Under the pieces are notes generated by a model. The model was not told the origin of the DNA. It ran no database searches and saw only the letters and a program-made list of their open reading frames with translations. Shown in pieces: positions 22,192 to 37,240 of a stretch of 64,000 nt of DNA. The position numbers and the translations under genes were made by a program. The stretch covers positions 1,054,001-1,118,000 of the forward strand of contig NZ_JRHC01000001.1 in NCBI RefSeq assembly GCF_000949475.1, read 5' to 3'. Positions within the stretch are counted from its first letter, which is position 1. Each line of letters opens with the position of its first letter. This DNA comes from Draconibacterium sediminis. GTDB lineage: Bacteria; Bacteroidota; Bacteroidia; Bacteroidales; Prolixibacteraceae.

Positions 22192-23787
22192 TTGAAAAAC
22201 GCAGGTAACCATATCGGATTTCTTTTGGCAGTATTTTTTATTGCGGTAAAATCTTTTGCCCAGTTATCGCCGGGAGAATTGTCTGATGTACATGCCCATT
22301 TGGAAGGTATAACAAACTGTACAAAGTGCCATGTTTTGGGTGAGAAGGAAACCTCGGCAAAATGTTTGGCTTGTCATACCGAAATAAAAAAGCTGGTGGA
22401 TCAGAAGAAAGGTTATCATGCATCGGCGGAAGTTACAGGGCAACGATGTGCAGCATGTCATGGCGAACATTATGGTCGCGATTTTGAGGTGGTTCGGATG
22501 AATCAAGATAATTTCAATCACAACCTAACGGGTTTTAAACTGGAAGCCAAACATGCTGAAATAACCTGTATCGATTGTCATAAGGCCGCGTTAATTAAAA
22601 ACAAAATTTCGCAGAAAAAATCGGCCGGTACCTTCCTTGGGATGGGCACCGAATGTATCGATTGCCATACCGATGTTCACCAGAATACTTTGTCGCAGAA
22701 TTGTACGGCTTGTCACAACCAGGAGGCTTTTGTTCCGGCTACCGGATTTGATCACGCAGCAACTAAATTCCCATTGGTTGGTAAACACAAGGAAGTTGAT
22801 TGTTCCAAATGTCATGAGAAGACGACGTTGAATGGCAACCCATTTCAACAGTTTGCCGATGTACAATTTGCCAGCTGCACCAGTTGCCACGAGGATGTGC
22901 ACAACAATAAATTTGGTAACGACTGTCGTAAATGTCATGATGAATTTTCTTTCACGCAGGTAAAAAACATTGGCGCTTTTAACCACAACAACACCGACTA
23001 TCCATTGCGGGGCAAACATGTTTCGGTAGATTGTAAAGAATGTCACACCTCGGGAAATCATACAAAAGCAGTACCGCATACTAATTGTACCGATTGCCAC
23101 AGCGATTTTCATAAAGGTCAGTTGGCAAAAAACGGGGTTTCACCCGATTGTAATTCCTGTCATTCTGTTGATGGATTTTCGCCTTCTTCTTTTGGCCTTG
23201 AGCGGCACAACAACACCGAATTTGCATTAAACGGCGCACACATGGCAACACCGTGTTTCGAGTGCCATAAAAAAGGTGAAGAATGGAATTTTAAGTTCGA
23301 AGAAATCAATTGCACTGCTTGTCACAAAAATATTCACGAGGATAAAATCAGCAGTAAATTTATGCCTGATTCCGATTGTCGTGCGTGTCATAACGAAACG
23401 ATCTGGAGCCAGATCAACTTTGATCATAACAAAACGAATTTTAAGCTCGAAGGAAAACATACAACGGCATCGTGCCGCGATTGCCACTTTAACGAAACTG
23501 CCGAAGTTTCCAGGCAAAAGTTTGCAGGACTCGCGGCTGACTGTGCGAACTGCCATGATGATATTCATTTTGGGCAGTTTGAGGAATCTGGGAAAAATGA
23601 TTGCGAGCGGTGCCACACGTTTAAAAACTGGTTGCCCGAAAAATTCAATCATGAAAATTCACGGTTTAAAATCGATGGAAAACATGAGGGGCTGGAGTGT
23701 ATTGCCTGCCATAAACCCACCGATAATTTAATCCGGAATTACATCGTTTATAAATTTGAAGATATAACATGCGCAAGTTGTCATTAA
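22192..23787 (+). CDS. Periplasmic or outer-surface multihaem cytochrome c, 20 CXXCH motifs
   Basis: 531-aa c-type cytochrome with a signal peptide (cleavage probably after SFAQ, residue 24) and, by my count, 20 CXXCH haem-binding motifs, from CTKCH near residue 43 to CASCH as the last five residues. Modules of about 60 residues repeat, each with a pattern like FNHNNTDYPLRGKH...CKECH in which the upstream His can be a distal haem ligand. The start codon is TTG at 22192, since no ATG precedes the signal peptide. The final CASCH codons overlap the start of the next cytochrome gene. It should form a long haem wire together with its neighbour. Confidence 0.92.
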   Translation: MKNAGNHIGFLLAVFFIAVKSFAQLSPGELSDVHAHLEGITNCTKCHVLGEKETSAKCLACHTEIKKLVDQKKGYHASAEVTGQRCAACHGEHYGRDFEVVRMNQDNFNHNLTGFKLEAKHAEITCIDCHKAALIKNKISQKKSAGTFLGMGTECIDCHTDVHQNTLSQNCTACHNQEAFVPATGFDHAATKFPLVGKHKEVDCSKCHEKTTLNGNPFQQFADVQFASCTSCHEDVHNNKFGNDCRKCHDEFSFTQVKNIGAFNHNNTDYPLRGKHVSVDCKECHTSGNHTKAVPHTNCTDCHSDFHKGQLAKNGVSPDCNSCHSVDGFSPSSFGLERHNNTEFALNGAHMATPCFECHKKGEEWNFKFEEINCTACHKNIHEDKISSKFMPDSDCRACHNETIWSQINFDHNKTNFKLEGKHTTASCRDCHFNETAEVSRQKFAGLAADCANCHDDIHFGQFEESGKNDCERCHTFKNWLPEKFNHENSRFKIDGKHEGLECIACHKPTDNLIRNYIVYKFEDITCASCH

Positions 23788-24800
23788 TAATTGTAGTGTT
23801 GTTTTTGGTCTTTCAACTGAGGGCACAGGAAAATCCCCATGGCGAGGACCTGTCAATTGATTGCCTCGACTGCCACACAACCGAAGGCTGGATTTTCTCG
23901 AAAGCAACGGCACGTTTCTCGCATGATTCAACTGATTTTACGCTTGACGGGCAGCATGCTTTTACCGATTGCAGAGCGTGCCACACAACACTGGTTTTTA
24001 ACGATGCAAAATCGAATTGTATGGATTGTCACAACGACATGCACAACAACACGGTTGGCCTCGATTGCAGGCGCTGTCACGATTCGCGCTCGTGGCTGGT
24101 AAGTAACATTACCGAAATTCATCAAACAAGCCGTTTTCCGCTGATGGGAGCTCACAACACCGCCGATTGTTCGGACTGTCATACCAGCGCTTCATTGTTG
24201 GAATTTCAGCCTCTGGGAGTGGAATGTATCGATTGTCATAGCCAGGATTATTACGCAACCACTGAGCCCAATCATGTTGAGTCCGGTTTCTCGACCGACT
24301 GTTTTGAATGTCACCGGATTGATGCATTCTTGTGGTCGGCACAAGGTATTAATCACGATTTTTTCCCCTTAACAAAAGGACATGCTGTTAGCAGTTGTAC
24401 CGAATGTCATACCTCGGGAGTTTTTGAACCGATTTCAACCGATTGTTTTAGTTGCCATGAAACTGATTTTGTTTCGGCAACAAATCCATCGCACCAAAAC
24501 AGCGGTTTTTCAACGCAATGTTCCGACTGTCATACAACCGACCCGGGATGGAGTCCGGCACAGTTTACTGTTCATGATGACTACTATTTCCCTATTTATT
24601 CGGGCAGGCACCGTGGCGAATGGAACAATTGTTTTGATTGCCACACGCAGCAGAATAGCTACTCACTGTTTAGCTGTACCGATTGTCACGAACACAATCA
24701 AACCGAAACGGACAGTCGCCATAGAGATGTAAATGATTACGTATATACGCCAACAAGTTGTTTCGATTGTCACCCAAGAGGTAATGCAGAAGATGATTAA
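23769..24800 (+). CDS. Multihaem cytochrome c, 13 CXXCH motifs
   Basis: 343-aa exported cytochrome with a signal peptide (ending LRAQ, residue 19) and 13 CXXCH motifs by my count, the first CLDCH near residue 32 and the last CFDCH near 331. The modules resemble those of the upstream 20-motif protein (for example FTLDGQHAFTDCRACH), so the two are likely products of duplication. The gene overlaps the upstream one by 19 bp and the downstream beta-barrel gene by 8 bp, which implies coupled translation. Role: relay within an envelope-spanning electron path, inferred from content and context. Confidence 0.92.
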   Translation: MRKLSLIIVVLFLVFQLRAQENPHGEDLSIDCLDCHTTEGWIFSKATARFSHDSTDFTLDGQHAFTDCRACHTTLVFNDAKSNCMDCHNDMHNNTVGLDCRRCHDSRSWLVSNITEIHQTSRFPLMGAHNTADCSDCHTSASLLEFQPLGVECIDCHSQDYYATTEPNHVESGFSTDCFECHRIDAFLWSAQGINHDFFPLTKGHAVSSCTECHTSGVFEPISTDCFSCHETDFVSATNPSHQNSGFSTQCSDCHTTDPGWSPAQFTVHDDYYFPIYSGRHRGEWNNCFDCHTQQNSYSLFSCTDCHEHNQTETDSRHRDVNDYVYTPTSCFDCHPRGNAEDD

Positions 24801-26409
24801 GATACGAAAACCAAATATCAGATTATTCGGATTGTTTCTTTTGTTTTGGGGAACAATGGCCGTGAATGCGCAAGAATCCGGGGAACTTCTCAATGGGAAA
24901 GTATCGTACGTTACCGGAGAAAATATTTATGTGCGATTTGCCTCCACCAATCAGATTGAAAATGGTGATACCTTGTTTATCCGGGATAAAAACGGCCTGA
25001 CGCCGGCCTTACTTGTCGATAATAAATCTTCCATTTCATGTTTATGCTCTGTTTTGGGAGAACATACGTTTAAGGTCGACGATATTGTTTTTGGCAGAAC
25101 AAATAAGCCGGTTCGTGAAGTTGTGCAACAGCAACAGGATTTGCCTGAAAAGGATGTGAATGAACGGGTATTAATTTCTCAGGAACCGACAAAAGAACCG
25201 ACGAGAACACAGGATATAAACGGTAGATTGTCCCTGTCTTCTTACTCCAATATTTCTGATGAAGCGGATAATATTCATCGCTTCCGTTATACTTTATCAG
25301 CAAAAGCTTCGCATTTGTCAGGATCAAAAATTTCTGCTGAAACGTATGTGTCTTTCACGCATAAACTAAATCAGTGGGAGGTGGTGCAGGAGAATCTGAA
25401 CAATGCCTTGAAAGTATACAGTTTGGCGCTGAAATATGATATCAACGAGTCGGCCACTTTTTGGGCCGGGCGAAAGATAAATCCGCGCATTGCAAATGTT
25501 GGAGCCATTGACGGGGTACAGTTCGAATATAAATTTAAAAATATGTTTGCTGGAATTGTAGGCGGTACACGGCCCGATCACCAGGATTACGGCTACAATT
25601 TTGATTTGTTTGAATACGGCGCTTACGTAGGGCAAAGCAAAAAAACGTCCAATGGTTTTGTGCAGTCGTCGCTGGCTTTTTTTGAGCAACGAAATTCGGG
25701 GAATATCGACCGCCGGTTTGTTTACATGCAGCACACCAATTCGGCCATTAAAAATTTGACCTTGTTTTCTTCGATGGAACTCGATTTGTATAAGGTGGAA
25801 AATGAAAAGCCCACAAACACCGTGAGTTTAACCGGCCTGTATTTTTCAGCACGTTATCGTTTTTCAAAACGACTTTCGGTTTTTGGTTCGTACGACAATC
25901 GGAAGAATGTAATTTACTACGAAACCTTCCGGAATTATGCCGACGAGATTTTGCAACAGGCAAGCCGGCAAGGAGTACGCGCCAGGATTAACTACCGACC
26001 TGTAAATGGCTTTATTGTTGGTGCCAGCGCCGGAACACGATTCCGCGACGAAGGTCCGCGACCAACAAAAACATTAAATGGTTTTGCAACCTGGACAAAA
26101 GTTCCGGCCCTGAATGCTTCGTTGAGTATTACCGCCAATTTGATGCAAACCAGCTATCTCGACGGGCAGGTTTATGGTGCACGTTTATCAAAAGATCTTG
26201 TTTCAGGAAAATTATATACAATGCTACATTATCGTTGGGTAGATTTTCAATATGTAAATACTTTAACTAATTTGCAGCAGCACATTGGCGAGCTTGATTT
26301 GTCGTGGCAATTCAGCAAAAAACTGTATTTGTCGGCCAATTACGAGGCAACATTTCAGGATCAACAGTTGTTTAACAGGTTGTACCTTAACTTGAGAATT
26401 AAATTTTAA
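24793..26409 (+). CDS. Outer-membrane beta-barrel protein of the cytochrome operon
   Basis: I take the ATG at 24793 (538 aa), which overlaps the stop of the cytochrome gene in ATGATTAA and begins a clear signal peptide (MIKIRKPNIRLFGLFLLF, cleaved after VNAQ). In-frame ATGs upstream at 24733 and 24784 would only add residues in front of it. Residues about 25-105 form a small soluble domain (GKVSYVTGENIYVRF). From about 150 to the end, alternating hydrophobic strands finish in LYLNLRIKF, typical of an outer-membrane barrel of roughly 16-18 strands. In known porin-cytochrome systems a barrel of this kind encloses a multihaem protein. No sequence family was recognised, so this role is an inference from context. 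Confidence 0.7.
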   Translation: MIKIRKPNIRLFGLFLLFWGTMAVNAQESGELLNGKVSYVTGENIYVRFASTNQIENGDTLFIRDKNGLTPALLVDNKSSISCLCSVLGEHTFKVDDIVFGRTNKPVREVVQQQQDLPEKDVNERVLISQEPTKEPTRTQDINGRLSLSSYSNISDEADNIHRFRYTLSAKASHLSGSKISAETYVSFTHKLNQWEVVQENLNNALKVYSLALKYDINESATFWAGRKINPRIANVGAIDGVQFEYKFKNMFAGIVGGTRPDHQDYGYNFDLFEYGAYVGQSKKTSNGFVQSSLAFFEQRNSGNIDRRFVYMQHTNSAIKNLTLFSSMELDLYKVENEKPTNTVSLTGLYFSARYRFSKRLSVFGSYDNRKNVIYYETFRNYADEILQQASRQGVRARINYRPVNGFIVGASAGTRFRDEGPRPTKTLNGFATWTKVPALNASLSITANLMQTSYLDGQVYGARLSKDLVSGKLYTMLHYRWVDFQYVNTLTNLQQHIGELDLSWQFSKKLYLSANYEATFQDQQLFNRLYLNLRIKF

Positions 26410-26422
26410 AACAATAAAAAGA

Positions 26423-27166
26423 ATGATGAGGATGAAGATGACTAAGATTTTGATGATACTGGCCGTTGCCGGTATGTTTTTATCGTGTGTACGAAATAAA
26501 AATGGCGCTTCGGCTCCGGCTCAGAGTGAGAGTGCATTCAATATGATTAAGGTTTCAGAAGTGATTCAGGGAGGAAGTTACACCTACATTAGCGCAACTG
26601 AAAATGGTATTGCAAAGTGGATCGCAGTAGCGAAACAAGAGGTGAGTCCGGGCGAAGTTTTATATTACTACGATGCCTTGCCAATGGAAAATTTCCACAG
26701 TAAAGAGATCGATAGAACCTTTGATGTAATTTACTTTGTGAATAAAATAACCAAAACTCCCGGAACTGAGCAGCCTGCCATGGGTAGTGCTATGCCTCGG
26801 TCGCATCAGGGGAAAGTGGCTGTTAGCGATGCAGAAGTTGAAATCGAGAAAGAAGAAGGAGACTTGAGTATTGCCGATGTTTTTGCCAACAAAGCCGATT
26901 ATAGCAACAAAGAATTTGAAATTAAAGGGGCTGTGGTAAAAGTAAACGAGCAGGTGATGGGTAAAAACTGGGTGCACATTCAGGACGGTACCGGCACCGG
27001 TAGTAATTTCGATCTGACAATTACAACACAAGCCGATGTAAAAGTTGGCGACGTGGTTACTTTTAAAGGAAAATTGACGCTGGAAAAAGATTTTGGCGCG
27101 GGCTATTTCTACGATGTAATTATGGAAGACGGAACCCTTGTACAAAAGGAGGGAACCCAGATTTAA
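26423..27166 (+). CDS. OB-fold lipoprotein of the cytochrome operon
   Basis: 247-aa lipoprotein (signal ends FLSC, near residue 22; several ATG starts are possible, the first used here). The C-terminal half (about 150-240) looks like an OB-fold of the kind often found beside multihaem cytochromes: NKEFEIKGAVVKVNEQVMG, WVHIQDGTG, VGDVVTFKGKL and YFYDVIMEDG. The middle is acidic and low in complexity. It is the last gene of the operon, 13 bp after the barrel gene. A role in assembly or as a periplasmic or surface accessory of the cytochrome complex is a guess. Confidence 0.7.
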   Translation: MMRMKMTKILMILAVAGMFLSCVRNKNGASAPAQSESAFNMIKVSEVIQGGSYTYISATENGIAKWIAVAKQEVSPGEVLYYYDALPMENFHSKEIDRTFDVIYFVNKITKTPGTEQPAMGSAMPRSHQGKVAVSDAEVEIEKEEGDLSIADVFANKADYSNKEFEIKGAVVKVNEQVMGKNWVHIQDGTGTGSNFDLTITTQADVKVGDVVTFKGKLTLEKDFGAGYFYDVIMEDGTLVQKEGTQI

Positions 27167-27188: not shown

Positions 27189-27448
27189 AAACCTGATTTC
27201 GAGTTTAAAATATTCTCACAGAAAGTCATAATTATGTCAGATTTAGATTTAAAAATCTGTAGTAATAGCGGGTTATTTCACAGAATTTTAAATCTAAAGA
27301 TGGCGTGAGAAGGACTTTTGCTTTGCTCTTTTTTTCATAAACTTCTCCCAATTTTCTTATATTATCCCGATAGTACTACGAAAACCGGAAAAAGTTTCTG
27401 ATTAAAATAGCTAAAGCTGTGTGTTATTTTAAACTCGAAATCAGGTTT
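27189..27448. repeat. 260-bp segment bounded by 24-bp perfect inverted repeats
   Basis: The sequence at 27189-27212 is the exact reverse complement of 27425-27448. Inside, 27242-27260 and 27280-27298 form a second inverted repeat (18 of 19 matching) with a 19-nt loop. The right arm lies over the last codons of the squalene-cyclase-like gene and covers two bases of its stop codon (27424-27426). I see no target-site duplication. It could be a small non-autonomous mobile element, or a base-pairing structure between the 3' ends of the two converging transcripts. Confidence 0.6.
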
Positions 27449-29220
27449 ATGGCTTCGAGATAAGCTGTTAAAGGATATAATTTTTCATCGTACCACAACG
27501 ATGCAAAATACAATCCGATTGGGGCTTTTTTAAGCCCATTTTTTTTGTAATAATCGTCGAGCCACGCTAACCCTCTTTCAATCTCAGTTTCCGATTTTGT
27601 TTCCTTCAAAGCTGCTACGGCAAGCGCTGTTTCTTCAATCGTACCTTCAATTCCAAAATCACCTCCCCAGCTGCCATCTTCATTCTGAACTTTCCGCAGG
27701 AAGTCGGTTCCTTTTGCAATCATTTTCTGAATTCTTTCAGTAAGAACCGGCTCATCTTTCAACAACAAATTTGCTTTCTGAAAATAGGTGAGTACCCGCG
27801 CAGTTCCGTACACCGGGTTTTCATGATTCTGGGCGTGCTGGTTACCAAACCAAAGTGGTAACCACGAACCGTTTTCTTTTTGGTGTTTGCCCAGATAATC
27901 GACAGCCTTTTTTATTGCTGTAGAATACAGTTTTTTCTGTTTTGAATTCAGTTCTGATTTGTATACATCCAACAGTTTGGAAAGCGCTAAAACGCAGTGC
28001 CCGGTTAAATCGGCACAACTCTGGTCGAAAGGTAATTTTCCCCAGCCCCGCGAAAATGTAGGAAAGCCGCCATCATTATTTTGAAGTTTTAGCAACCATT
28101 CGCCACCACCCAGAATTTCCTCCCTTATTGTATGGTGAGGCGCCAGTTCTAAAAGTGCCAGAATCGCTCCGGGTGTATCGTCGCAGTCGGGTACCGATCC
28201 CGTGTAATTTGTCCAGCCCCAACCGCCCGGCGAAGTGCCGTTAAACGGATGTACTGTTTTATTTTGCACCGAAAGCAAATGACTGATAATGCTCTTTTGT
28301 TGGGTTTCCGAAAGCACTTTGTTTTTTCTATCACCCAAAGCTTTTACACTAAGTGTGGTCACCCATGTTGACAGGTCGATGTCAATGGGCCAGCTACCAT
28401 CTTCGCGTTGTATACGTTTTAAAAAAGCAATTCCTTTGTCTACAACAATCGAATCTCTTAATCCTGCATTTATTAGGCTTAAGGCAACAAATGCGGTGAG
28501 TGGAATAGCTTCCAGGAAGCCGCCGCTTTCCGGTAGCGATCGTTCCAGTATTTTAAGGGCTTTCTTCTCCGCTTTTGCCCTGATGGTTCGTGTAAATCCA
28601 TTCGATTTTTTCTTGCGGAAAACCACAATCCCAACAGCAATCAATGCCGGAATTGCATAACTTACCACACTCAGATTCAATATACGATAAAAACGTCGTG
28701 GCAGCAAAGCCAGCTCGAAAGGCAGCTGCGGAATGTGTTTAAATCCGTCGTCGCCGGGAACGCCACAAAGTGCGCACAATGTTAAAATTGGTACCGAGAA
28801 CGTATAGTCTTTTTGGTAGTGATCAAGAATAACTTTTGCCACCTGGTCGGAGCGAACATCAACATTTTGTGTAAGCAGGTAGCCTGCCAGTTTTTGCTGT
28901 GTTGACTTTACTTCCAAATTGGTTTCTGCATATAAATTCAACGCCGCATAAGAAAGTAAAGAAGTTGAAATATTTGCCGGACTTTCGGGTGTGTCGCCAT
29001 AACCACCGTCAGTATTCTGATTTAAAGAAAGCCATTTCAGGCCTTTTGTAATTTCGTGCTGATGAAGATTGGCATCGTGGAAATGAAGCGCTGCAACAGC
29101 AACAGCTACCCCCAGCGCACTCGACGATAATTCTCCGGACCAAAAGCCATCATCGTTAAGCTCATCAAGCAAAATATCGCTCAGTTCCTTAAACCGTATT
29201 TCCAACTCTTCTTTTTTCAC
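27424..29220 (-). CDS. Squalene-hopene cyclase-like class II terpene cyclase
   Basis: 598-aa alpha/alpha-toroid protein of the squalene-hopene/oxidosqualene cyclase family, usually about 630-720 aa. The protonating motif DxDDT is intact as DCDDT (345-349). Several QW-type repeats are visible: QNTDGGYG (about 68-75), QREDGSWP (271-278), QNNDGGFP (380-387), QKENGSW (447-453), QNEDGSWGG (512-520). A hydrophobic stretch VVSYAIPALIAVGIVV (185-200) and GGFLEAIPLTAF also follow the family. It would cyclise a polyprenyl substrate at the membrane. The substrate is uncertain because no squalene synthase is in the operon. It is the last gene of a leftward five-gene operon, 168 bp after the small toroid gene. 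Confidence 0.8.
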   Translation of the reverse strand: MKKEELEIRFKELSDILLDELNDDGFWSGELSSSALGVAVAVAALHFHDANLHQHEITKGLKWLSLNQNTDGGYGDTPESPANISTSLLSYAALNLYAETNLEVKSTQQKLAGYLLTQNVDVRSDQVAKVILDHYQKDYTFSVPILTLCALCGVPGDDGFKHIPQLPFELALLPRRFYRILNLSVVSYAIPALIAVGIVVFRKKKSNGFTRTIRAKAEKKALKILERSLPESGGFLEAIPLTAFVALSLINAGLRDSIVVDKGIAFLKRIQREDGSWPIDIDLSTWVTTLSVKALGDRKNKVLSETQQKSIISHLLSVQNKTVHPFNGTSPGGWGWTNYTGSVPDCDDTPGAILALLELAPHHTIREEILGGGEWLLKLQNNDGGFPTFSRGWGKLPFDQSCADLTGHCVLALSKLLDVYKSELNSKQKKLYSTAIKKAVDYLGKHQKENGSWLPLWFGNQHAQNHENPVYGTARVLTYFQKANLLLKDEPVLTERIQKMIAKGTDFLRKVQNEDGSWGGDFGIEGTIEETALAVAALKETKSETEIERGLAWLDDYYKKNGLKKAPIGLYFASLWYDEKLYPLTAYLEAINLISSLK

Positions 29221-29388
29221 TTTTTAGATTTTAAACACAAAGACGCAAAGACACTAAGAATTTCTTCTCGCAAAGGCGCGAAGGCGCAAAGTTTTTGCTT
29301 ATTGTTATTTGCCAATTGCCTATTCCTTCTTAAATCAAAAATCGTTAATCTAAATTCTTCATTCAACTTTAATCCTTCTTCCTTCCAA
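29221..29388. repeat. Spacer with CGCAAAG-type low-complexity dispersed repeat
   Basis: Between the two toroid genes, positions about 29230-29295 carry repeated words ACACAAAGACGCAAAGACAC and CGCAAAGGCGCGAAGGCGC. Sequences of this type occur as scattered intergenic repeats in many bacteria (established as a general observation, not checked here). The stretch separates the cyclase gene from the otherwise tightly packed operon and may have been inserted. Confidence 0.45.
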
Positions 29389-30222
29389 TTAATCCTTAAC
29401 AAGGCTTCCCAATGCCAACAGCCCATAAAACGTATATTCCAAATCGCGGGTTTCATCGCCATCGCCGGAAAGAAAGGCTCCTGAAAGATAATTCATTTGA
29501 ATAAAATCAAGACAATCTGGAGTGATCAGCCGCAAATCATAATTGGTTTCTGCCAAAGAGAAAAGTGCTACCCCGGTTGATAAAGTATCGCTGAATGGTG
29601 TGGTTTCAAAAGCCCTGAATCCAGCTTCTTCCCGGTGAAACTCCAATAAAAGTTGTTGGTATTTCTTGTAGGCTAACCCCAGATCAAAGCGGGCAAAACA
29701 AAGTGCCGCGACCAAACTACAGGGTGAGTTTTCTTTCACTTTATAAAAGGGTAGCCAGACACGTGCCATCAGGTTAAAAAGAAAGCGGTTTTTTGCAGTG
29801 GCATCAATGGTTAAGGCCAGCAGAAAAAAGCGGTAAGAAATATCCATGAAGTTGTGACCCGAAAATACTTTCCTGAGCAACGAGAACACTGATTCGTTTT
29901 TTTGTTGCGGAAGTAACTCCGTTTTCATCAGGTTTAGCGCCAGATCTTCGACTGTACTTGATGTCTCAGGTTGTCTTGATATGTATGTTCTTAATTGCTC
30001 AATTTCTTTGTTTTGTCCGGTGGCTAAACTTAGCCAGCAGCCGAAAAGCGAGTAGTAAGGATCGGGATTTCCGGCACGATCGCAAAAGCCACCCGAAGCT
30101 TGTTGCTGACTTTTTATAAAATCAGTGATTTCCTGTTGTATTTCAGGCGATAAAGTTTCAAATCCTAAAGAAAGTCGCCGAACCAGTTTTTTATAGATCG
30201 CGATCTTCTTTGGGTTACTCAT
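29389..30222 (-). CDS. Small prenyltransferase/cyclase-repeat toroid protein
   Basis: 277-aa protein with sequence features of the alpha/alpha-toroid fold shared by protein prenyltransferase beta subunits and terpene cyclases: QQQASGGFCDRAGNPDPYYSLFGCWLSLA (spread over about 38-67) and LEYTFYGLLALGSL near the C-terminus. It has no DxDD motif and is too short to be a complete cyclase. It overlaps the polyprenyl synthase gene by 8 bp (ATGAGTAA) and precedes the full cyclase gene. It may be a partner or second half for the cyclase, or a chaperone-like substrate holder. I do not recognise a specific family. Confidence 0.65.
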   Translation of the reverse strand: MSNPKKIAIYKKLVRRLSLGFETLSPEIQQEITDFIKSQQQASGGFCDRAGNPDPYYSLFGCWLSLATGQNKEIEQLRTYISRQPETSSTVEDLALNLMKTELLPQQKNESVFSLLRKVFSGHNFMDISYRFFLLALTIDATAKNRFLFNLMARVWLPFYKVKENSPCSLVAALCFARFDLGLAYKKYQQLLLEFHREEAGFRAFETTPFSDTLSTGVALFSLAETNYDLRLITPDCLDFIQMNYLSGAFLSGDGDETRDLEYTFYGLLALGSLVKD

Positions 30223-31798
30223 TGGTGGTTTCTGATTTGAAGATTTTTCCCATCACGCCATAAAGACTTAGGCGAAGTTTGGAATTATCAAGTTTATCCA
30301 GTTCTGCGTAACAGTTATCGATGTATTGCTGCAAGTATTCTTTTGCAGCTTCCAGCAATCCGGTTTCATCAATTAGCTTTCTGAATTCACCAACTTGCCC
30401 GAATAAATTCGCTGGCGTCTCTTTTTCCTGATCGGCGAAATGTTTATTCAGCAAGGCCAGCAGGAAGGGATAATCGCCGGTTTTTTCGGCAGCGTGTTGT
30501 TCCGTATATTCATTCAGGTCGTCGCGAATTTGGTAAGCAATTCCCATATAATCGGCAAATTGCTCCAGAATTTCCTGCTCCTGTTTGTTTGCTCCTCCAA
30601 CAATTGCTCCCAGCAGCAAGGCCACTTTTATGGCTTCACCGGTTTTGTTTTTAAAAACCTCGATCATTTCAACGGGCAGCAATTGGATTTTGCCGTCGTT
30701 GAAAAGAATGTCGACGCCTTGTCCGCGTGTTAATTGTATGTGCGAGTGGGCAATAAAACGCAGGCAGTTTCTCATGGTTTCATTCGGAACATCCAGATTG
30801 CTTAACAACTCGTAGCCTTTGCCAATCAGAAAATCACCTGCATTGATGGCCTGCGCAACACCATATTTTTCATGCGCCGTAAGGGTGTTGTAACGCTGGT
30901 TGGCATTGTCCTCAATATCGTCGTGAATTAGCGACGCCTTATGGAAACACTCAATAATAAGCGTTAAGGGCTGCAGAAGCTCATCCGCATCGTTAGTTGA
31001 GTAGGCCTGGAAACTTAAAGCCGCAAGCAACGGTCGTATCCGTTGCCCGTCTACAAGCAGATATTCCTGTGCAATTTGTTCAGTTTTATCGCGCCCCTGA
31101 ATGTATTTTTCGATGTTTTCTTTTGTAAATAAAGCTTCGATTCGGTTCTTTAACAACGACACCGAAATGGGTTGGCGCGCTTCATCCGGCTCATACGAAC
31201 GCATTTCATCCAGAATCCATTTTATATCTGCACGCGTCTCTTCACAACCATCAAAAAGCAGCGGAATGCCAATTACCGGTACGGCAGCATTTGATACCGG
31301 CTCAAACGAACGTTGCAAAACCGGCATACAACTCACGCCGATTACAGCATCTATTGATCCTTCTTCAACCAAACCAACCGCAACCGTGGTTCCTTCGGCT
31401 ACCAGATTGGCATATCCTTTTGATTCGGCTTCAATCAGCAGATCATCGATGGGGCAGGCCTTACATCCTGCACAATTCAGTCCCAGTTCGTCGAACAGGC
31501 CCTCGCATTTATTGTTGTCGTTCAGGCATTGTGGGAGCAGCAAAAGCCGGCGGTTCATAGGCGTGGCTTTTACCGTTTTTCGCCACGATTCGTTACCTAG
31601 CAATACCATTGCAAAAGGAATAAATTCAGCAGAAATTTCCTGTTCGCGCACCAAATCAGCGGCCAGTTCTTCCAGTTTTTGGATGTTTACAGGAGGACGC
31701 AGCTCCAACATCCCGACCATAGCTGCAGCAGCCTTACGCATTTTATTGCGCACGAACGATTCCTCAGGAACTTTTAATATGCCATTTGTCTCCTTCAT
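30215..31798 (-). CDS. DUF116-polyprenyl synthase fusion protein
   Basis: The ATG at 31798, one base after the stop of the radical SAM gene, gives 527 aa; the frame stays open 90 bp further upstream inside that gene but this adds nothing meaningful. Residues about 1-200 are a DUF116-like domain with LLLLPQCL and cysteines C91, C98, C109, C112 and C115, which could bind an iron-sulfur cluster. Residues about 225-520 are a trans-isoprenyl diphosphate synthase with the first Asp-rich motif DDIED (293-297) and the second DDLNE (426-430). The small residue A288 five positions before the first motif suggests a product longer than C15, by the family rule. Joining these two domains in one chain is unusual. 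Confidence 0.85.
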   Translation of the reverse strand: MKETNGILKVPEESFVRNKMRKAAAAMVGMLELRPPVNIQKLEELAADLVREQEISAEFIPFAMVLLGNESWRKTVKATPMNRRLLLLPQCLNDNNKCEGLFDELGLNCAGCKACPIDDLLIEAESKGYANLVAEGTTVAVGLVEEGSIDAVIGVSCMPVLQRSFEPVSNAAVPVIGIPLLFDGCEETRADIKWILDEMRSYEPDEARQPISVSLLKNRIEALFTKENIEKYIQGRDKTEQIAQEYLLVDGQRIRPLLAALSFQAYSTNDADELLQPLTLIIECFHKASLIHDDIEDNANQRYNTLTAHEKYGVAQAINAGDFLIGKGYELLSNLDVPNETMRNCLRFIAHSHIQLTRGQGVDILFNDGKIQLLPVEMIEVFKNKTGEAIKVALLLGAIVGGANKQEQEILEQFADYMGIAYQIRDDLNEYTEQHAAEKTGDYPFLLALLNKHFADQEKETPANLFGQVGEFRKLIDETGLLEAAKEYLQQYIDNCYAELDKLDNSKLRLSLYGVMGKIFKSETTNE

Positions 31799-31799
31799 A

Positions 31800-32972
31800 T
31801 TAACCGTAGGCGCCAAAGCCAAAAAATGCCCGTTTTTTTGCAAAGCGATACACCCAGCTCTTTTCGCGAACGGGTTTGGCCGAACCATGACTGGAAACTT
31901 TTTCCATTTTGCTCAAACGTTCAGCTTCGTTCTCTCTGCCCGATGTATCTTTTGCGGCGTGTTGTTTTGTATAATTAACCAACCACTGCGGGTCGTCCAT
32001 AACGATGCAACCCGTTGTCAATTTTGGTATTTCTGTTTTAAATCCTGCAAGGAAAGGTGAATTGCGGTAAATGCTTTCCAGGTCGCCATCGGCCACATTG
32101 TTGGTGGCGAATTGAATGACCGGGCAAGGTTCGATGTCGCCCGAAGCGTTAATGTGGTGACTGAGTCCGGATGCCGCGGGGCACAATCCTTTTCCATTCT
32201 CATCCCAGTACGCATCGATAATGGCAATGTTGTATTTCTGTCGTGCATCTACAATAAACAGGCGAAGTTGCTCAATCTGTTCTGCCGAAAGACAGAGGTC
32301 GACTGTAGCGTCTTGTCCCACGGGACGATAAATGTAGTACCACAAATAAAGCACTCCGCGGTCGATCAGCGACCGGATAAATTCATCGGAAAATGCAAGG
32401 TCGATGTTCGATTTGCAAACACTCATTGCCACTCCCGTAATTAATCCTGCATCGGTTGAATGATCTATGGCAGCCTGCGCTTTTTGGTAAACGTTTTTTC
32501 CTCCACGGCGCACATCGGCAATTTCTGTGTCGCCCTCAAAACTGATTAGCGGTGAAACGTTGGCCAGTTTGCGTAAACGTTCGGCAATATCTTTTGTGAG
32601 CAAAGTCCCGTTGGTAAACAGCTGAAAATAGCAGTCGGAATGTTTTTCGAAAACATCAAAAAGCGGTTTGTACATAAGTGGCTCGCCACCCAGTATTCCG
32701 AAAAAGTACGATCCTTTTGCTTTCGATTGCGTGATTATCGAATCCAGCATTTCGGGCGACATGCGCGCATTTTGTTTTTTATGCGTTACCCAGCAGCCCT
32801 GGCAATTCAGGTTGCAATCGTCGGTAACCGAGATAAAATGAAATGCCGGGAAAAAATCGCCGTTTTTTATTCGTTTCTGAAAACGCTGAATGCCACGGGC
32901 ACCTTTTATGCCCATGTTATATGCAAACTTATACAGGCATTTTTTATCTGTTTTCAGGATTTGTTTAAGCAT
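31800..32972 (-). CDS. Radical SAM enzyme of the isoprenoid-like operon
   Basis: 390-aa radical SAM protein. The cluster motif CNLNCQGC gives C53, C57 and C60, followed by GGEP and a TNG/SFEG core pattern. Further Cys in GLCPAASG, EPCPVIQF and TTGCIVMDD suggest a SPASM- or twitch-like auxiliary cluster region. The C-terminal 40 residues are basic. The start overlaps the iron-sulfur protein gene by 8 bp (ATGCTTAA) and its stop is one base from the DUF116 fusion, so the three are translationally coupled. It may act on an isoprenoid, as HpnH does in hopanoid synthesis, but this comparison is by context only. Confidence 0.85.
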   Translation of the reverse strand: MLKQILKTDKKCLYKFAYNMGIKGARGIQRFQKRIKNGDFFPAFHFISVTDDCNLNCQGCWVTHKKQNARMSPEMLDSIITQSKAKGSYFFGILGGEPLMYKPLFDVFEKHSDCYFQLFTNGTLLTKDIAERLRKLANVSPLISFEGDTEIADVRRGGKNVYQKAQAAIDHSTDAGLITGVAMSVCKSNIDLAFSDEFIRSLIDRGVLYLWYYIYRPVGQDATVDLCLSAEQIEQLRLFIVDARQKYNIAIIDAYWDENGKGLCPAASGLSHHINASGDIEPCPVIQFATNNVADGDLESIYRNSPFLAGFKTEIPKLTTGCIVMDDPQWLVNYTKQHAAKDTSGRENEAERLSKMEKVSSHGSAKPVREKSWVYRFAKKRAFFGFGAYG

Positions 32973-33747
32973 CTTTTTTTGGGTTCTTTAAACTGTTCTT
33001 TAATTCTTCCAGGGCTCTTTTTTTCTCTTCTTCGGCCTGTTGAAAAGCGCCTTGTTTGAAAATGTTTCTCCGGGCATTGTTGCGTTCGTTCAGCATAACA
33101 AACAAATTTCCTTTTTGATCGTTTCCCTGTGCTTTTTTATCCTCGCCGGGTTCTGCTCCTGATAAGGCCGAATTTTCGGGTAATCGCGGGAATATAATCG
33201 CCGATGCCGGGCAGGTTCGTCCGCAGGCCGGACAATTGTTTTTGCACGACAACGGATTGACAACCTTGAGGCTTTTTTTATTGTACGTATAAACTCCAAA
33301 AACACAGAACCGGGCACACTGTCCGCAAAGGGTACAACGCTCTTTGTCGATAATCGGATACCACGCCGGAACTTTTAGCCCGGTCTTTTTTATTTCGTAT
33401 TTGCTGTTTTCCTGCTTTTCTTCAATCCGGGCAGCTAAATCGGAGGTAATTTCTTTAGTGTCGGTCTCCCTGAAATTAAACACCTCGTAATTGCTGAGCT
33501 GAACCCCGTTCTGCTCAAACATATTTTTAATGGCCCGCGGGTAACAGGCAGCAATCAGTGTTTTGTCGTAATCGTTATCCAATTGGTGCAGGAAGTCCTT
33601 TTCATTCAGCGAAAAAGCACACAGGTCGTGCAGCTCATAAATATCAACTCCAAGCGGTTTGAAAGCTTCTGAAAGCTCTTCCTTCTTATCGTCGGAAATG
33701 ATGCCAGCACCACAATTGCAAAAAATCAGGCAAGTTTTGTTTGTCAT
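32965..33747 (-). CDS. Two-cluster ferredoxin-type protein with Cys-rich N-terminal domain
   Basis: 260-aa protein, first gene of the operon. The N-terminal domain (1-90) carries CNCGAGI, DLCAF and AACYPRA, as in the electron-transfer domain of HdrA-like proteins. Residues about 130-180 hold two cluster-binding motifs, CTLCGQCARFC and CKNNCPACGRTCP. The last 80 residues are charged and predicted helical or coiled. It probably supplies electrons to the radical SAM enzyme and perhaps to the DUF116 domain encoded next in the operon. No TM segment is seen. Confidence 0.8.
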   Translation of the reverse strand: MTNKTCLIFCNCGAGIISDDKKEELSEAFKPLGVDIYELHDLCAFSLNEKDFLHQLDNDYDKTLIAACYPRAIKNMFEQNGVQLSNYEVFNFRETDTKEITSDLAARIEEKQENSKYEIKKTGLKVPAWYPIIDKERCTLCGQCARFCVFGVYTYNKKSLKVVNPLSCKNNCPACGRTCPASAIIFPRLPENSALSGAEPGEDKKAQGNDQKGNLFVMLNERNNARRNIFKQGAFQQAEEEKKRALEELKNSLKNPKKDA

Positions 33748-33999
33748 TTTTCTGGTAATGAAAAGCTAAATAAACAAAATTCTGCTCAACTTAAAAATGC
33801 TTGCCCGCCTTTAACAATCAATTAAGACGGATAGGCTTTTAACTGCGATGAATCTTGTTGTTTTGCAGATGAGTTGAGCCCATTGGCAGAGGAAATAATA
33901 CGCACATTGAATTAATGACACAAAAGACGAGGAATGGCCTGTTTTTGTAATAATTATTCCGAAATTTATACCTGTACATTAAACAGACAATTTTATATT
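33748..33999. other. Divergent intergenic region, isoprenoid-like operon versus fucosidase
   Basis: About 250 bp separating two outward-facing transcription units, so it should contain both promoters. I found no TAnnTTTG element that stands out. The plus-strand frame of the fucosidase remains open back to 33934, but the ATG at 34000 with its lipoprotein signal is clearly the start. Confidence 0.35.
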
Positions 34000-35763
34000 A
34001 TGAACCGCTTATTGCTTATTGCCCTGTTTGCCCTGCTTTTTGTTTCGTGCGATTCGAAAAAGGAGGAGAAAGCCAAAAAGAATGTTGAACTATCGGCTCA
34101 CGATCAGAAAATGGAGTGGTGGCGCGAAGCCCGCTTCGGAATGTTTATTCACTGGGGTTTATATGCCGATCCGGCAGGTGAATGGAAAGGCGAACGTATA
34201 AATGGGATTAGCGAATGGATAATGGCCCGTGCCGAAATTCCGGTGAAAGAATACGAGAAACTGGCAGAAAACTTTAATCCCGATAAATTTGATGCCGAAG
34301 CATGGGTGAAACTGGCAAAATATGCCGGAATGAAATACATAGTGATCACTTCGAAACACCATGATGGTTTCGCGATGTTTCATTCAAAAGCCAGCAAATA
34401 CAATATTGTTGATGCTACTCCTTTTGACCGCGATCCGTTAAAAGAACTGGCTGAAGTTTGTAAAAGAGAAGGTATACGTTTGGGTTTTTACTACTCGCAG
34501 GCACAAGACTGGCACGAGCCAGGCGGAACGTACTGGAACATTGAAGAAGGTAAACCACACTGGGACCCGGATTTAGAACGCGAACCACTGATGAATTACA
34601 TAAACGGAAAGGCGGTGCCGCAGGTAAAAGAAATTCTGGAAAACTACGGAGGGCTGGATATTTTGTGGTGGGATACGCCACGCGGAATGACAGAAGAAGC
34701 GGCTAACGCTTTAAAAGCAGTTACCGATGATTACCCTAACCTGATAACGAATAACCGCCTGTATCGTCCATGGCCGGGCGATTTTCAAACACCCGAGCAG
34801 CATGTGCCGCCAACGGGGCTGGATTACGATTGGGAGGTGTGTATGACCATGAACACCAGCTGGGGCTACAAATGGTACGACGAAAACTGGAAATCGACCG
34901 AAGAGTTGATAAAAATGCTGGTTGATATTGCCAGTAAAGGTGGTAATCTGTTGCTGAACGTGGGGCCAACTGCAACAGGTGAATTCCCCAAAGCCAGTGT
35001 TGAGCGGCTAAAAGAAATGGGCCACTGGATGCAACAAAACGGCAAATCAATATACGGTACAAGTGCCAGTCCGTTTTATAAATTGCCCTGGGGCCGCTGC
35101 ACGACAAAAAAAGAGGGCGGCGTAACCAATCTTTACCTGCATGTTTTCGACTGGCCAAAAGATGGCTTATTAAAAGTGCCGGGTCTGGAAGCAAATGTAC
35201 GCGATGTTTACCTGTTGTCGAACCCGAAACAGCATTTTGCCTGGAAATTTGAAGAGGGTGATTTACATGTTCATGCGCCGTCGGTAATATTTAATGAGAT
35301 AAATACCGTGGTTGTTGTGAAAATACGTGGCGAAATGACGGTAACAAGTAATAAACCACACTTAAAAGAAGGTAGCGTGTTGTTACCTGCCGATTTTGCC
35401 GACATTTATAATCCCGGTTATGGCGAACATGCCGTACTAAAAGGCAGTAGTTCAAACTCAATAATTGCCAACTGGGTGGATGCCCGCACTCGCTTAGAGT
35501 GGATTTTTGATGCTGAACCGGGCAAATACCGGGTTGAAGCTTTGGTGTGGAGTGCCGAAAGAGGAGGAGTGTCAGTTACGTTAGGCGATCAGAAAATAGA
35601 AACTGAAATCCGCGATACAGGAGAAGATTATGAACTGCTAAAGCTGGGCGAAATTGAAATAATGGAAAGCGGTGAGCAATCAATTTCATTGCTGCCTGCC
35701 ACCGGAAATACAAGCGATAAACAATTGATGTATCTGGAGTTGATAAAACTACAGCAACAATAA
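34000..35763 (+). CDS. Alpha-L-fucosidase, GH29, lipoprotein
   Basis: 587-aa glycoside hydrolase removing terminal alpha-L-fucose with retention. A lipoprotein signal ends at FVSC (Cys17). GH29 hallmarks follow in order: ARFGMFIHWGLYADPAGEW (44-62), SKHHDGFAMF (118-127), LGFYYSQAQDWH (161-172), and GGLDILWWDTPRG, whose Asp (about 225) is the probable nucleophile. A C-terminal beta region (after about 370) ends in a part that may be a carbohydrate-binding or accessory domain. The adjacent, convergently oriented sulfatase suggests joint action on sulfated fucose-containing glycans such as fucoidan or host mucin, though no SusCD pair for them is in this window. Confidence 0.93.
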   Translation: MNRLLLIALFALLFVSCDSKKEEKAKKNVELSAHDQKMEWWREARFGMFIHWGLYADPAGEWKGERINGISEWIMARAEIPVKEYEKLAENFNPDKFDAEAWVKLAKYAGMKYIVITSKHHDGFAMFHSKASKYNIVDATPFDRDPLKELAEVCKREGIRLGFYYSQAQDWHEPGGTYWNIEEGKPHWDPDLEREPLMNYINGKAVPQVKEILENYGGLDILWWDTPRGMTEEAANALKAVTDDYPNLITNNRLYRPWPGDFQTPEQHVPPTGLDYDWEVCMTMNTSWGYKWYDENWKSTEELIKMLVDIASKGGNLLLNVGPTATGEFPKASVERLKEMGHWMQQNGKSIYGTSASPFYKLPWGRCTTKKEGGVTNLYLHVFDWPKDGLLKVPGLEANVRDVYLLSNPKQHFAWKFEEGDLHVHAPSVIFNEINTVVVVKIRGEMTVTSNKPHLKEGSVLLPADFADIYNPGYGEHAVLKGSSSNSIIANWVDARTRLEWIFDAEPGKYRVEALVWSAERGGVSVTLGDQKIETEIRDTGEDYELLKLGEIEIMESGEQSISLLPATGNTSDKQLMYLELIKLQQQ

Positions 35764-35821
35764 ATCAGACGAGGACACAACCTATTCGAACTTACATCTG
35801 TTTCCTCAGCATTCAAATTTG

Positions 35822-37240
35822 TTAATCTTTGGGGGCGTAATCCGGATTAGAAACAGGAAACTTCGCATTTGTTGATTTTAGTTTCTCATCAAGAAGGGAT
35901 TTAAGTTCCTGTGTTTTCTCTGGAAATAGTGTTGACACGTTTTTCGTTTCGCCCGGGTCTTCGGCCAGGTTAAAAAGTTCAGTTTTATTGTTTTCGTAGT
36001 GAACAACCAGTTTCCATTCTCCTTTACGCAATGCCGATCCGGGTTTCCATGCACTGCCATGGTAGTGCGGGTAATGCCAGAATAATTCGTCGCGTGTCAA
36101 ATGTTTGTTCTCCGTTAATACCGGCAGCAGGTTTTCTCCATCGTTACCGTCGTGTTTTGTTCCTGCTATGTTCAGAATGGTCGTAAAATAGTCCATGCTG
36201 ATAACCGGGCTGTCTTCCGTTCTGCCCGGGTTGGTGAGTTCAGGGCCAGAGATAATCAGTGGTACACGTATACCTCCCTCGTAACACCACCCTTTTCCTG
36301 CACGAAGCGGACCATTATTTGTTGGAGCATTTTTTCCTCTCAGTGTAGAAAGCCCGCCATTGTCGCTGGTGAAAATTACCCAGGTATTTTTATCCAACCC
36401 CAGTTCTTCAAGTGTATTCAGAATCCGACCAACATTCTCGTCCATGGCTGCCACCATCGATGCATAAGCTGCATTTTCCTGTACTAAGTGGGTCCATCCG
36501 TCGCCCTCCGCTTTTATCGGAACCTCATTAAGGCCCAGTTGCTCACGTTTTGTTTGATAGTGGTTGATGTAATCTTTAGCTGCCTGAATTGGAGTATGAA
36601 CCGTGTAAAATGAGAGGTAAAGGAAAAATGGATTACGCTTGTTGTTTTTAATGAAGTTTATACTTTCACTGGTCAGCCGGTTCGTAAGGTATTCTCCTTC
36701 CGGGCCATCTTCCAGCTTTGGATTTTTATAAGGTGAATAATAGCCTCCCGGAGGGCTCCCTTTATCATGACCGCCAAAGTTGATGTCAAATCCCTGGTCT
36801 TCCGGAAAAAATCCTTCATCTCCTAAATGCCATTTTCCAACAAAACAGGTTTTATAGCCCGTCTCCTTTAGTTTTTCGGCAATGGTAATTTCTTCCAGAG
36901 CCAGTTCTGTACCATCCTGAGGACCGAGTAAAGGTTTCATCTTTGGATCCAGGCCCGGAATCCAGTCGGTAATATTTACCCGGTTGGGATGTTTGCCTGT
37001 AAGTATTGCCGCACGAGTAGGGCTGCAAACCGGATTTGCTGCGTAGGCATTGGTGAAGCGTACTCCATGTTCTGCGAGTTTATCGATATTGGGCGTGTCG
37101 TAAAAACTTTCAGGGTAATTACAGGTTACATCTGCCCAGCCAAGGTCATCAACCAAAATAAAAACAAAATTAGGATGGTTATTTCTTGCACAGGAGACGA
37201 GAAGCAAGGCAAAAAACGAAAGGATAATTAGTTTACGCAT
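35822..37240 (-). CDS. Sulfatase, formylglycine-dependent, lipoprotein
   Basis: 472-aa S1-type arylsulfatase-like enzyme. A lipoprotein signal ends at LVSC (Cys17). The metal-binding VDDLGW (D31, D32) is followed by the maturation motif CSPTR with Cys72, which must be converted to formylglycine, then TGKHPNR, KWHLG and TSDNGG with further metal ligands. All catalytic elements are there. It releases sulfate from a sulfated glycan; the position specificity is not evident. It converges with the GH29 fucosidase gene (58 bp between stops), compatible with cooperative degradation of a sulfated fucan. Confidence 0.93.
   Translation of the reverse strand: MRKLIILSFFALLLVSCARNNHPNFVFILVDDLGWADVTCNYPESFYDTPNIDKLAEHGVRFTNAYAANPVCSPTRAAILTGKHPNRVNITDWIPGLDPKMKPLLGPQDGTELALEEITIAEKLKETGYKTCFVGKWHLGDEGFFPEDQGFDINFGGHDKGSPPGGYYSPYKNPKLEDGPEGEYLTNRLTSESINFIKNNKRNPFFLYLSFYTVHTPIQAAKDYINHYQTKREQLGLNEVPIKAEGDGWTHLVQENAAYASMVAAMDENVGRILNTLEELGLDKNTWVIFTSDNGGLSTLRGKNAPTNNGPLRAGKGWCYEGGIRVPLIISGPELTNPGRTEDSPVISMDYFTTILNIAGTKHDGNDGENLLPVLTENKHLTRDELFWHYPHYHGSAWKPGSALRKGEWKLVVHYENNKTELFNLAEDPGETKNVSTLFPEKTQELKSLLDEKLKSTNAKFPVSNPDYAPKD

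Follow-up and report, generated by a model that had tools for sequence, protein, structure and literature searches.

A conserved five-gene operon of Draconibacterium sediminis as a candidate squalene-independent route to a cyclic polyprenoid

Drimenyl diphosphate synthases and tetraprenyl-β-curcumene cyclase apply DxDD chemistry to a regular prenyl chain without squalene, and we know of no radical SAM, DUF116, or iron-sulfur (Fe-S) partners for class II cyclases that use diphosphates. Here, we analyzed a 64,000-nucleotide stretch of the Draconibacterium sediminis genome (contig NZ_JRHC01000001.1, positions 1,054,001 to 1,118,000), hereafter the window, in which five minus-strand genes run from 33747 down to 27424. 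They encode, in this order, an Fe-S protein (FES), a radical SAM enzyme (RSAM), a fusion of DUF116 with a polyprenyl synthase (D116PPS), a toroid protein (TOR), and a protein related to squalene-hopene cyclase (SHC). We read this operon, with moderate confidence and on the basis of its sequence, as a squalene-independent route to a cyclic regular (head-to-tail) polyprenoid that is probably a membrane lipid.

The squalene-hopene cyclase of Alicyclobacillus (PDB 1gsz/2sqc; TIGR01507) shares with SHC the same N- and C-terminal Pfam domains, a near full-length alignment, and the DxDDT motif. In contrast to that enzyme, SHC falls far under the equivalog cut-off, occurs in genomes lacking a match to PF00494 (the squalene/phytoene synthase family), and lies together with FES, RSAM, D116PPS, and TOR. 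The drimenyl diphosphate synthases (PDB 7xq4; AsDMS, 9m7f) align to SHC mainly around DxDD. The domain fusion found in D116PPS was noted in 2015 for Psta_0175 of Pirellula staleyi, and an electron-transfer role was proposed for DUF116; the accessible part of that paper makes no mention of a cyclase, RSAM, FES, TOR, or a terpenoid product (PMC5898192). Fungal non-squalene triterpene synthases form triterpene skeletons from hexaprenyl diphosphate by a dedicated synthase; they differ from the operon in being class I chimeric enzymes, with no radical SAM or Fe-S genes mentioned in the accessible text (PMC9177416). One terpene cluster listed for Leptospirillum combines IspH with a squalene-hopene cyclase and a radical SAM enzyme (PMC12654047). 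In their accessible parts, neither that paper nor PMC8692599 or PMC8303584 describes the five-gene set, and our searches of the open-licence literature (subscription journals and preprints lay outside their scope) yielded a description of the fusion alone. The operon is thus a combination of familiar enzyme families without a description in the searched literature, while the fusion itself was already known.

The genome around the window is 6.0 Mb, and the five genes with their recognizable parts are laid out as follows:

32965 to 33747, minus strand: FES, 260 amino acids, Fe-S protein with Fer4-type domains (Pfam)
About 33744 to 33463, minus strand: HdrA-N-like stretch of FES, weakly aligned to the N terminus of HdrA (NF041778, residues 2 to 95)
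About 33336 to 33211, minus strand: two-[4Fe-4S] ferredoxin-like part of FES
31800 to 32972, minus strand: RSAM, 390 amino acids, radical SAM enzyme (Pfam Radical_SAM)
30215 to 31798, minus strand: D116PPS, 527 amino acids, fusion of DUF116 and polyprenyl_synt (Pfam); the open frame, 30215 to 31888, holds 557 amino acids
About 31651 to 31208, minus strand: DUF116 domain of D116PPS, with seven conserved cysteines
About 31081 to 30215, minus strand: synthase domain of D116PPS, with DDIED at 30922 to 30908 and DDLNE at 30523 to 30509
29389 to 30222, minus strand: TOR, 277 amino acids, single α/α-toroid protein
27424 to 29220, minus strand: SHC, 598 amino acids, GTG start, SQHop_cyclase_N and SQHop_cyclase_C (Pfam)

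The frames of FES and RSAM share 8 bases, as do those of D116PPS and TOR, and a gap of 168 bases separates TOR from SHC. Because its homologues begin there, D116PPS most likely starts at 31798 rather than 31888, which would place the fusion 1 base past the RSAM stop. An earlier note, made from the letters of this DNA, had placed the five genes at these positions, and Pfam agrees. With the more likely start, the 89-base overlap between RSAM and the fusion disappears. Around the operon, promoters and terminators were counted about as often as in shuffled sequence (12 versus 11.5 and 9 versus 8.3, respectively), so no transcript boundary could be placed. Neither Rfam nor a tRNA scan gave a match anywhere in the window.

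The earlier note had proposed looking for the same gene set in other genomes. With 13 aligned fusion sequences as the query, a scan of a species-genome collection returned 268 relatives; the best 80 were kept, a choice favoring near relatives, and the five protein profiles that scored these loci were built from the same 80. We found all five genes in 62 of the 80 loci, and order and strand agree among 61 of these 62; in the remaining one (L100), TOR was called within a longer frame. Median intergenic gaps were 1, 5, 1, and 12.5 bases. Since the order recurs in 61 of 62 full loci, the gene set is not a product of chance, and the comparison supports the five genes as one functional unit. Twelve of the 18 incomplete loci were judged truncated by a contig end. 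Most of the 80 loci carry Bacteroidetes-type titles; the 15 others (L100 and L102 to L115) are titled Planctomycetota, Brocadiia, Acidobacteria, Terriglobia, Verrucomicrobiota, Kiritimatiellia, Hydrogenedentota, or plain bacterium, and, as most loci come from metagenome-assembled genomes, individual taxon labels may be wrong. Among the matches listed, the closest named locus was that of Draconibacterium mangrovi (97% identity of the fusion protein). In the complete genome of Draconibacterium orientale (L038, 11577 to 14546), TOR and SHC are each split over two frames, by either decay or sequencing error.

In an even draw of 395 genomes from the phylum of the window, the fusion (E ≤ 1e-70) was found solely in the window's own genome, and 68 of 294 Planctomycetota genomes contained a match, some of them partial (G796 and G830 hold the synthase part only); in both draws, 3 or 4 candidates were scored per genome. 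The distribution of the fusion is patchy but wide. The window's family was represented by 140 genomes, of which 90 have D116PPS (E ≤ 1e-60) and 88 the cyclase domain PF13243. Both occurred in 87 genomes, the cyclase only in one (G008), the fusion only in three (G023, G094, and G098), and neither in 49, a co-occurrence with a Fisher p of about 7e-33, uncorrected for shared ancestry.

SHC exceeded the cut-offs of PF13249 (81.0 bits) and PF13243 (117.2 bits) and carries VPDCDDT at about 28194 to 28174. The VPDxDDT motif (D345, D347, D348, and T349) is invariant in all 68 aligned sequences, which bears out the intact DCDDT motif that the earlier note had reported; E529-E530-T531 is likewise invariant, and the C-terminal GLYFxxLWYxExxYP varies little or not at all. 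The planctomycete cyclases keep the three aspartates of DxDD in 15 of 15 cases and the threonine in 14, and sequences from other phyla are 38 to 45% identical to the window protein. SHC has both the SQHop N and C domains and the DxDD expected of a class II terpene cyclase, which makes it a candidate for protonation-initiated cyclization. Among solved structures, the squalene-hopene cyclase of Alicyclobacillus matched it best (profile E 8e-34), followed by drimenyl diphosphate synthases and lanosterol synthase. On the squalene-hopene cyclase equivalog TIGR01507, SHC scored 101.9 bits against a cut-off of 431.1, and two orthologues scored 100.2 and 141.2. A hydrophobic stretch at residues 185 to 197 is conserved, which suggests that SHC is membrane attached.

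D116PPS scored 145.6 bits for polyprenyl_synt (PF00348; cut-off, 27) and 100.9 for DUF116 (PF01976; cut-off, 25). Both aspartate-rich motifs are present, in agreement with the polyprenyl synthase named in the earlier note: the first, DDxxD, is found in 79 of 79 aligned sequences and 18 of 18 planctomycete synthases, and the second reads DDxx(E/D). Before DDxxD, Ala at position −5 and Ser at −4 are kept in the same 79 and 18 sequences, and Phe at −8 in 79 of 80 by pattern and in all 18 planctomycete copies. Of the two other synthases of the window's genome, one has Phe at −5 (short-chain type), and in the other, of the long-chain type, Ala at −5 is combined with Leu at −8. According to the rule established by mutagenesis of prenyl synthases, a small residue at −5 lengthens the chain and a bulky one at −8 caps it. 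Read by this rule, Ala −5 and Phe −8 predict a product chain of about C25 to C30. The seven DUF116 cysteines (C109xxC112xxC115 with C91, C98, C157, and C185) are present in 79 of 79 aligned sequences and in 17 of the 18 planctomycete copies.

The fusion also adds to the synthases that a genome already has. PF00348 matches (E ≤ 1e-15, counted by eye) numbered exactly three in 79 of the 90 fusion-bearing family genomes, two in nine, and four in two, whereas the 50 family genomes without the fusion had two in 45 cases, three in one, and one in four. D116PPS is thus an extra, dedicated synthase. Its use as a quinone-chain enzyme is unlikely, as 45 of the 50 fusion-less genomes still have two PF00348 matches. 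In Foldseek searches with an AlphaFold2 model of the fusion (pLDDT 88), the nearest solved relatives were geranylgeranyl diphosphate (GGPP) synthases; all 50 entries shown were polyprenyl synthases, and the DUF116 fold found no relative among them.

RSAM scored 60.8 bits on PF04055 (cut-off, 29.5). Its C53xxxC57xxC60 (about 32816 to 32793) is invariant in 71 of 71 aligned sequences, as are the further cysteines C264, C283, and C322 (about 32183 to 32007), laid out as Cx13Gx4C and then C322. Auxiliary-cluster cysteines follow a known pattern in SPASM and twitch domains, the basis of our comparison; no SPASM model came over its cut-off among those shown for RSAM, and the three extra invariant cysteines are present. 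The model of HpnH, the radical SAM enzyme adenosylhopane synthase, was not among the best 25 of 65 NCBIfam families for RSAM, a search of this protein only and not of the whole genome. No NCBIfam cut-off was reached by RSAM (best 25 of 65 families), FES (best 25 of 43), SHC, or D116PPS. Identity of RSAM to the window protein is 44 to 47% in 9 of 11 sequences from other phyla and 53 and 37% in the other two, which is close to that of SHC and higher than that of the fusion and TOR.

FES just exceeded the Fer4 cut-off (21.4 versus 21.1 bits), with other Fer4 models under theirs, and its cysteines C138, C141, C144, C148, C168, C172, C175, and C179 are invariant in the 70 aligned sequences. Full HdrA models gave 24.9 to 41.7 bits against cut-offs of 1100 to 1400, with partial stretches aligning. 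Several Acidobacteria, Planctomycetota, and Verrucomicrobiota loci contain two adjacent frames that match the FES profile, as if the HdrA-like domain were a separate gene there. In loci of the same three phyla, FES or RSAM has as neighbors a CobW-like GTPase and a GcvH-like protein whose lipoyl-lysine position is retained:

GcvH-like and CobW-like neighbors: L105, 5588 to 7337; L110, 601 to 2179; L128, 13501 to 14049; L171, 7576 to 8937

Neighbor clustering also placed a CobW-like gene alone directly upstream of FES in a Prolixibacteraceae locus (L054, 6763 to 7866). We infer that FES with the GcvH-like and CobW-like genes provides a low-potential or dithiol electron feed.

TOR was modeled by AlphaFold2 as a single toroid (pLDDT 93) and fell below the Pfam Prenyltrans cut-off (22.7 versus 26.5 bits), while its L105 orthologue reached 49.7. 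The best Foldseek match was the β subunit of Rab geranylgeranyltransferase (RabGGTase)/GGTase3 (E 4.4e-3, none at or below 1e-3), and a profile search matched RabGGTase β with E 6e-11, via several weak repeats. Like RabGGTase β (1dce and 6o60), TOR has a toroid fold and a GGF.DR.G..D..[YF]..LFG-like stretch; unlike it, TOR reads D-x-YYSLFG in place of DPFHTLFG, with an invariant Tyr57 aligned to the His that we take to be the zinc-site ligand. On this ground, we rejected TOR as an active zinc prenyltransferase. Other conserved residues are D54, Y56, F60, D212, D256, D260, E262, and Y263. A duplicated cyclase half was also considered and rejected, as profile comparison gave 37% probability over 70 columns. 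We read TOR, from its sequence and its model, as a candidate non-zinc isoprenoid-binding toroid.

The likeness of TOR to RabGGTase β could instead mean that SHC and TOR are prenyltransferase-type toroids rather than cyclases and that the operon produces or alters a redox cofactor, a quinone-like compound, or a prenylated protein. FES and DUF116 do suggest electron transfer, as has been proposed for DUF116 (PMC5898192, accessible part), and the GcvH-like and CobW-like genes that join the set in other phyla point the same way. This is difficult to reconcile with the invariance of DxDDT in 68 of 68 cyclases and of DxDD in 15 of 15 planctomycete ones, or with Tyr at the zinc-site position of TOR, and we regard it as unlikely.

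The set is re-ordered but retained in Planctomycetota, for which we hand-picked 18 loci from the 68 positive genomes and took 18 kb as the neighborhood. In 15 of the 18, this neighborhood of the fusion includes SHC, in orders such as FES-SHC-D116PPS and RSAM-SHC-D116PPS-TOR. An RSAM orthologue (E ≤ 1e-30) was found in 16 of the 18 genomes and a TOR orthologue (E ≤ 1e-10) in 17, often distant from the fusion. One genome, G641, encodes a fusion (L144, 7622 to 9472) in which four of the seven DUF116 cysteines are replaced and the synthase motifs are intact. It is the only one of the 18 with decayed DUF116 cysteines, the only one in which the TOR search found nothing, and the only one for which the RSAM and TOR searches both came back empty; a search for a cyclase covered the 18 kb around its fusion and found none. 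Because the decay of the cysteines coincides with the apparent absence of RSAM and TOR, this single case ties the Fe-S function of DUF116 to these two proteins.

The same coincidence is compatible with a scheme in which the Fe-S and radical genes replace squalene synthase, so that head-to-head joining of two prenyl chains by DUF116 and RSAM yields a squalene-like hydrocarbon, which SHC then cyclizes. The fusion of DUF116 to the synthase, the hydrocarbon substrate of the nearest solved cyclase, and the absence of PF00494 from 23 of the 90 fusion carriers would all suit such a coupling. The residues at −5, −4, and −8, however, indicate a chain longer than C20 and hence a coupled product beyond C40, and we know of no radical SAM enzyme that performs head-to-head prenyl coupling. 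We therefore consider this scheme doubtful.

In the squalene-independent route that we favor, D116PPS would build an all-trans polyprenyl diphosphate of about C25 to C30, a length between those of GGPP and the menaquinone chain. TOR, as a prenyltransferase-β-type toroid without the zinc-site His, would bind or present the chain, and the membrane-associated SHC would protonate it via the DxDDT acid and fold part of it into fused rings. FES would give low-potential electrons to the DUF116 Fe-S center and to RSAM, which together may alter the allylic head or the skeleton, by IspH-like reductive loss of the diphosphate, formation of a new C–C bond, or attachment of a polar group; IspH-like removal by DUF116 is a guess by analogy. 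We infer the chain length, the membrane location, and the electron path.

The independence from squalene is indicated by the distribution of PF00494, which was found in 86 of the 140 family genomes. Of the 90 fusion carriers, 23 gave no match; 17 of these 23 are listed as at least 91% complete, and two (G070 and G036) are single contigs at 100%. Many carriers of the operon may therefore have squalene, which is nonetheless not a requirement for carrying it. The window's genome has one PF00494 gene, whose protein is below every cut-off (HpnD, 119.5 of 278.6; CrtB, 86.0 of 550; HpnC, 85.5 of 250.45). It lies in the following cluster, in which isopentenyl diphosphate isomerase (idi) is over its cut-off and most other names were assigned by eye:

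L180, 2308 to 7934 (contig 15 of the same genome): carotenoid-type cluster with a phytoene-synthase-like gene, isopentenyl diphosphate isomerase, and CrtZ-like, two lycopene-cyclase-like, acyltransferase-like, and glycosyltransferase-like genes

Because its neighbors are idi, the CrtZ-like gene, and the lycopene-cyclase-like halves, we take the PF00494 gene to be a carotenoid gene. A second, more distant PF00494 type (about 310 to 340 amino acids, about 50 to 75 bits) occurs in G021, G009, G012, and other family genomes; its carriers span several genera and include genomes with the operon as well as genomes lacking it.

The evidence that weighs against the squalene-independent route begins with the same family. 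PF00494 is commoner with the fusion (67 of 90 genomes) than without it (19 of 50), 13 of the 23 genomes behind more distant loci have it and 10 do not (completeness not given), and the best model for the window genome's own copy, although below cut-off, is HpnD. Thus, in the 67 fusion carriers with PF00494, squalene could still feed the cyclase. These counts favor ordinary hopanoid or squalene cyclization, in which the squalene used by SHC would come from elsewhere and the remaining four genes would tailor the product; squalene-hopene cyclase is, moreover, the nearest solved relative of SHC, and planctomycete clusters with a polyprenyl synthetase and a terpene cyclase have been read as carotenoid- or hopanoid-forming (PMC8303584, accessible part). 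We rejected an ordinary hopanoid operon as the principal explanation on account of the PF00494-less carriers, including the two single contigs listed as 100% complete, the low TIGR01507 score, and the dedicated third polyprenyl synthase inside the operon; the carotenoid-type neighbors of the window genome's PF00494 gene also speak against it, and its probability appears small. Other points that count against the route concern its parts. Fourteen of the 18 planctomycete synthases have NDxxD as their second motif, and their activity may differ. The chain-length rule comes from site-directed work on other synthases. No cyclase lies in the 18 kb of the planctomycete loci L134, L139, and L144, and the RSAM search found nothing in G661 as well as in G641. 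Despite a continuing contig, no open frame was found for FES in L071, SHC in L106 and L107, RSAM in L109, or either RSAM or SHC in L110 and L115, and G094, listed as 98% complete, has the fusion without a PF13243 match. Last, the order of the steps is our own arrangement, as the RSAM reaction may come before or after cyclization, and the route as a whole is predicted from genes.

The pathway drawn in the earlier note, in which the synthase makes a chain, the cyclase folds it, and radical chemistry alters it, is partly supported, and it is strengthened by the distribution of the set over phyla and by its occurrence without squalene synthase. That note had remarked that no squalene synthase or known hopanoid gene is present and that ordinary hopanoid synthesis with squalene genes elsewhere would speak against the pathway. 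Such a supply is contradicted for the 23 PF00494-less carriers and may exist in the other 67. The window's own genome, with its one PF00494 gene in a carotenoid-type setting, gives no sign of it. The PF00494-less single-contig carriers make squalene independence directly testable. If the squalene-independent route is true, textbooks lack an entire class of bacterial cyclic lipids and the gene set for finding it is now defined, and DUF116, a domain of unknown function, gains its first biosynthetic setting.

A more specific proposal concerns tricyclic terpanes, which span C19 to C54, occur in abundance in oils and in extracts of source rocks (PMC10319793, PMC10464518, and PMC9247107), and have been called "orphan biomarkers" whose precise sources are said to be unknown (PMC9247107). 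The proposed parent of the C19 to C30 members is tricyclohexaprenol, a regular C30 isoprenoid of prokaryote membranes (PMC10319793), and algal sources such as Tasmanites have also been proposed (PMC10464518); all of these statements come from the accessible parts of the papers. The operon product might be a tri- or tetracyclic regular polyprenoid of about C25 to C30, tricyclohexaprenol-like and acting as a sterol surrogate. It would arise by direct class II cyclization of a regular chain whose allylic head is reworked by the Fe-S/radical SAM system, and the terpanes would have a living source in the carriers, among them Draconibacterium-type Bacteroidota and many Planctomycetota. This hypothesis joins the literature with our reading of the genes, and we give it a low probability; a chain of C25 to C30 would not explain the members up to C54 (range from the accessible part of PMC10464518).

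The operon is flanked on both sides by genes of other kinds. On the opposite strand beside it (23769 to 27166, plus strand) lie a multihaem cytochrome c, over cut-off for Cytochrome_C7 and with a weak MtrC-like match, a 558-amino acid protein without a Pfam or NCBIfam match that by eye resembles an outer-membrane barrel, and a 247-amino acid lipoprotein-like protein. These three are possibly an electron conduit. The upstream flank (33934 to 37240) holds an α-L-fucosidase on the plus strand and a sulfatase on the minus strand, as in the polysaccharide-degrading regions of marine Bacteroidota.

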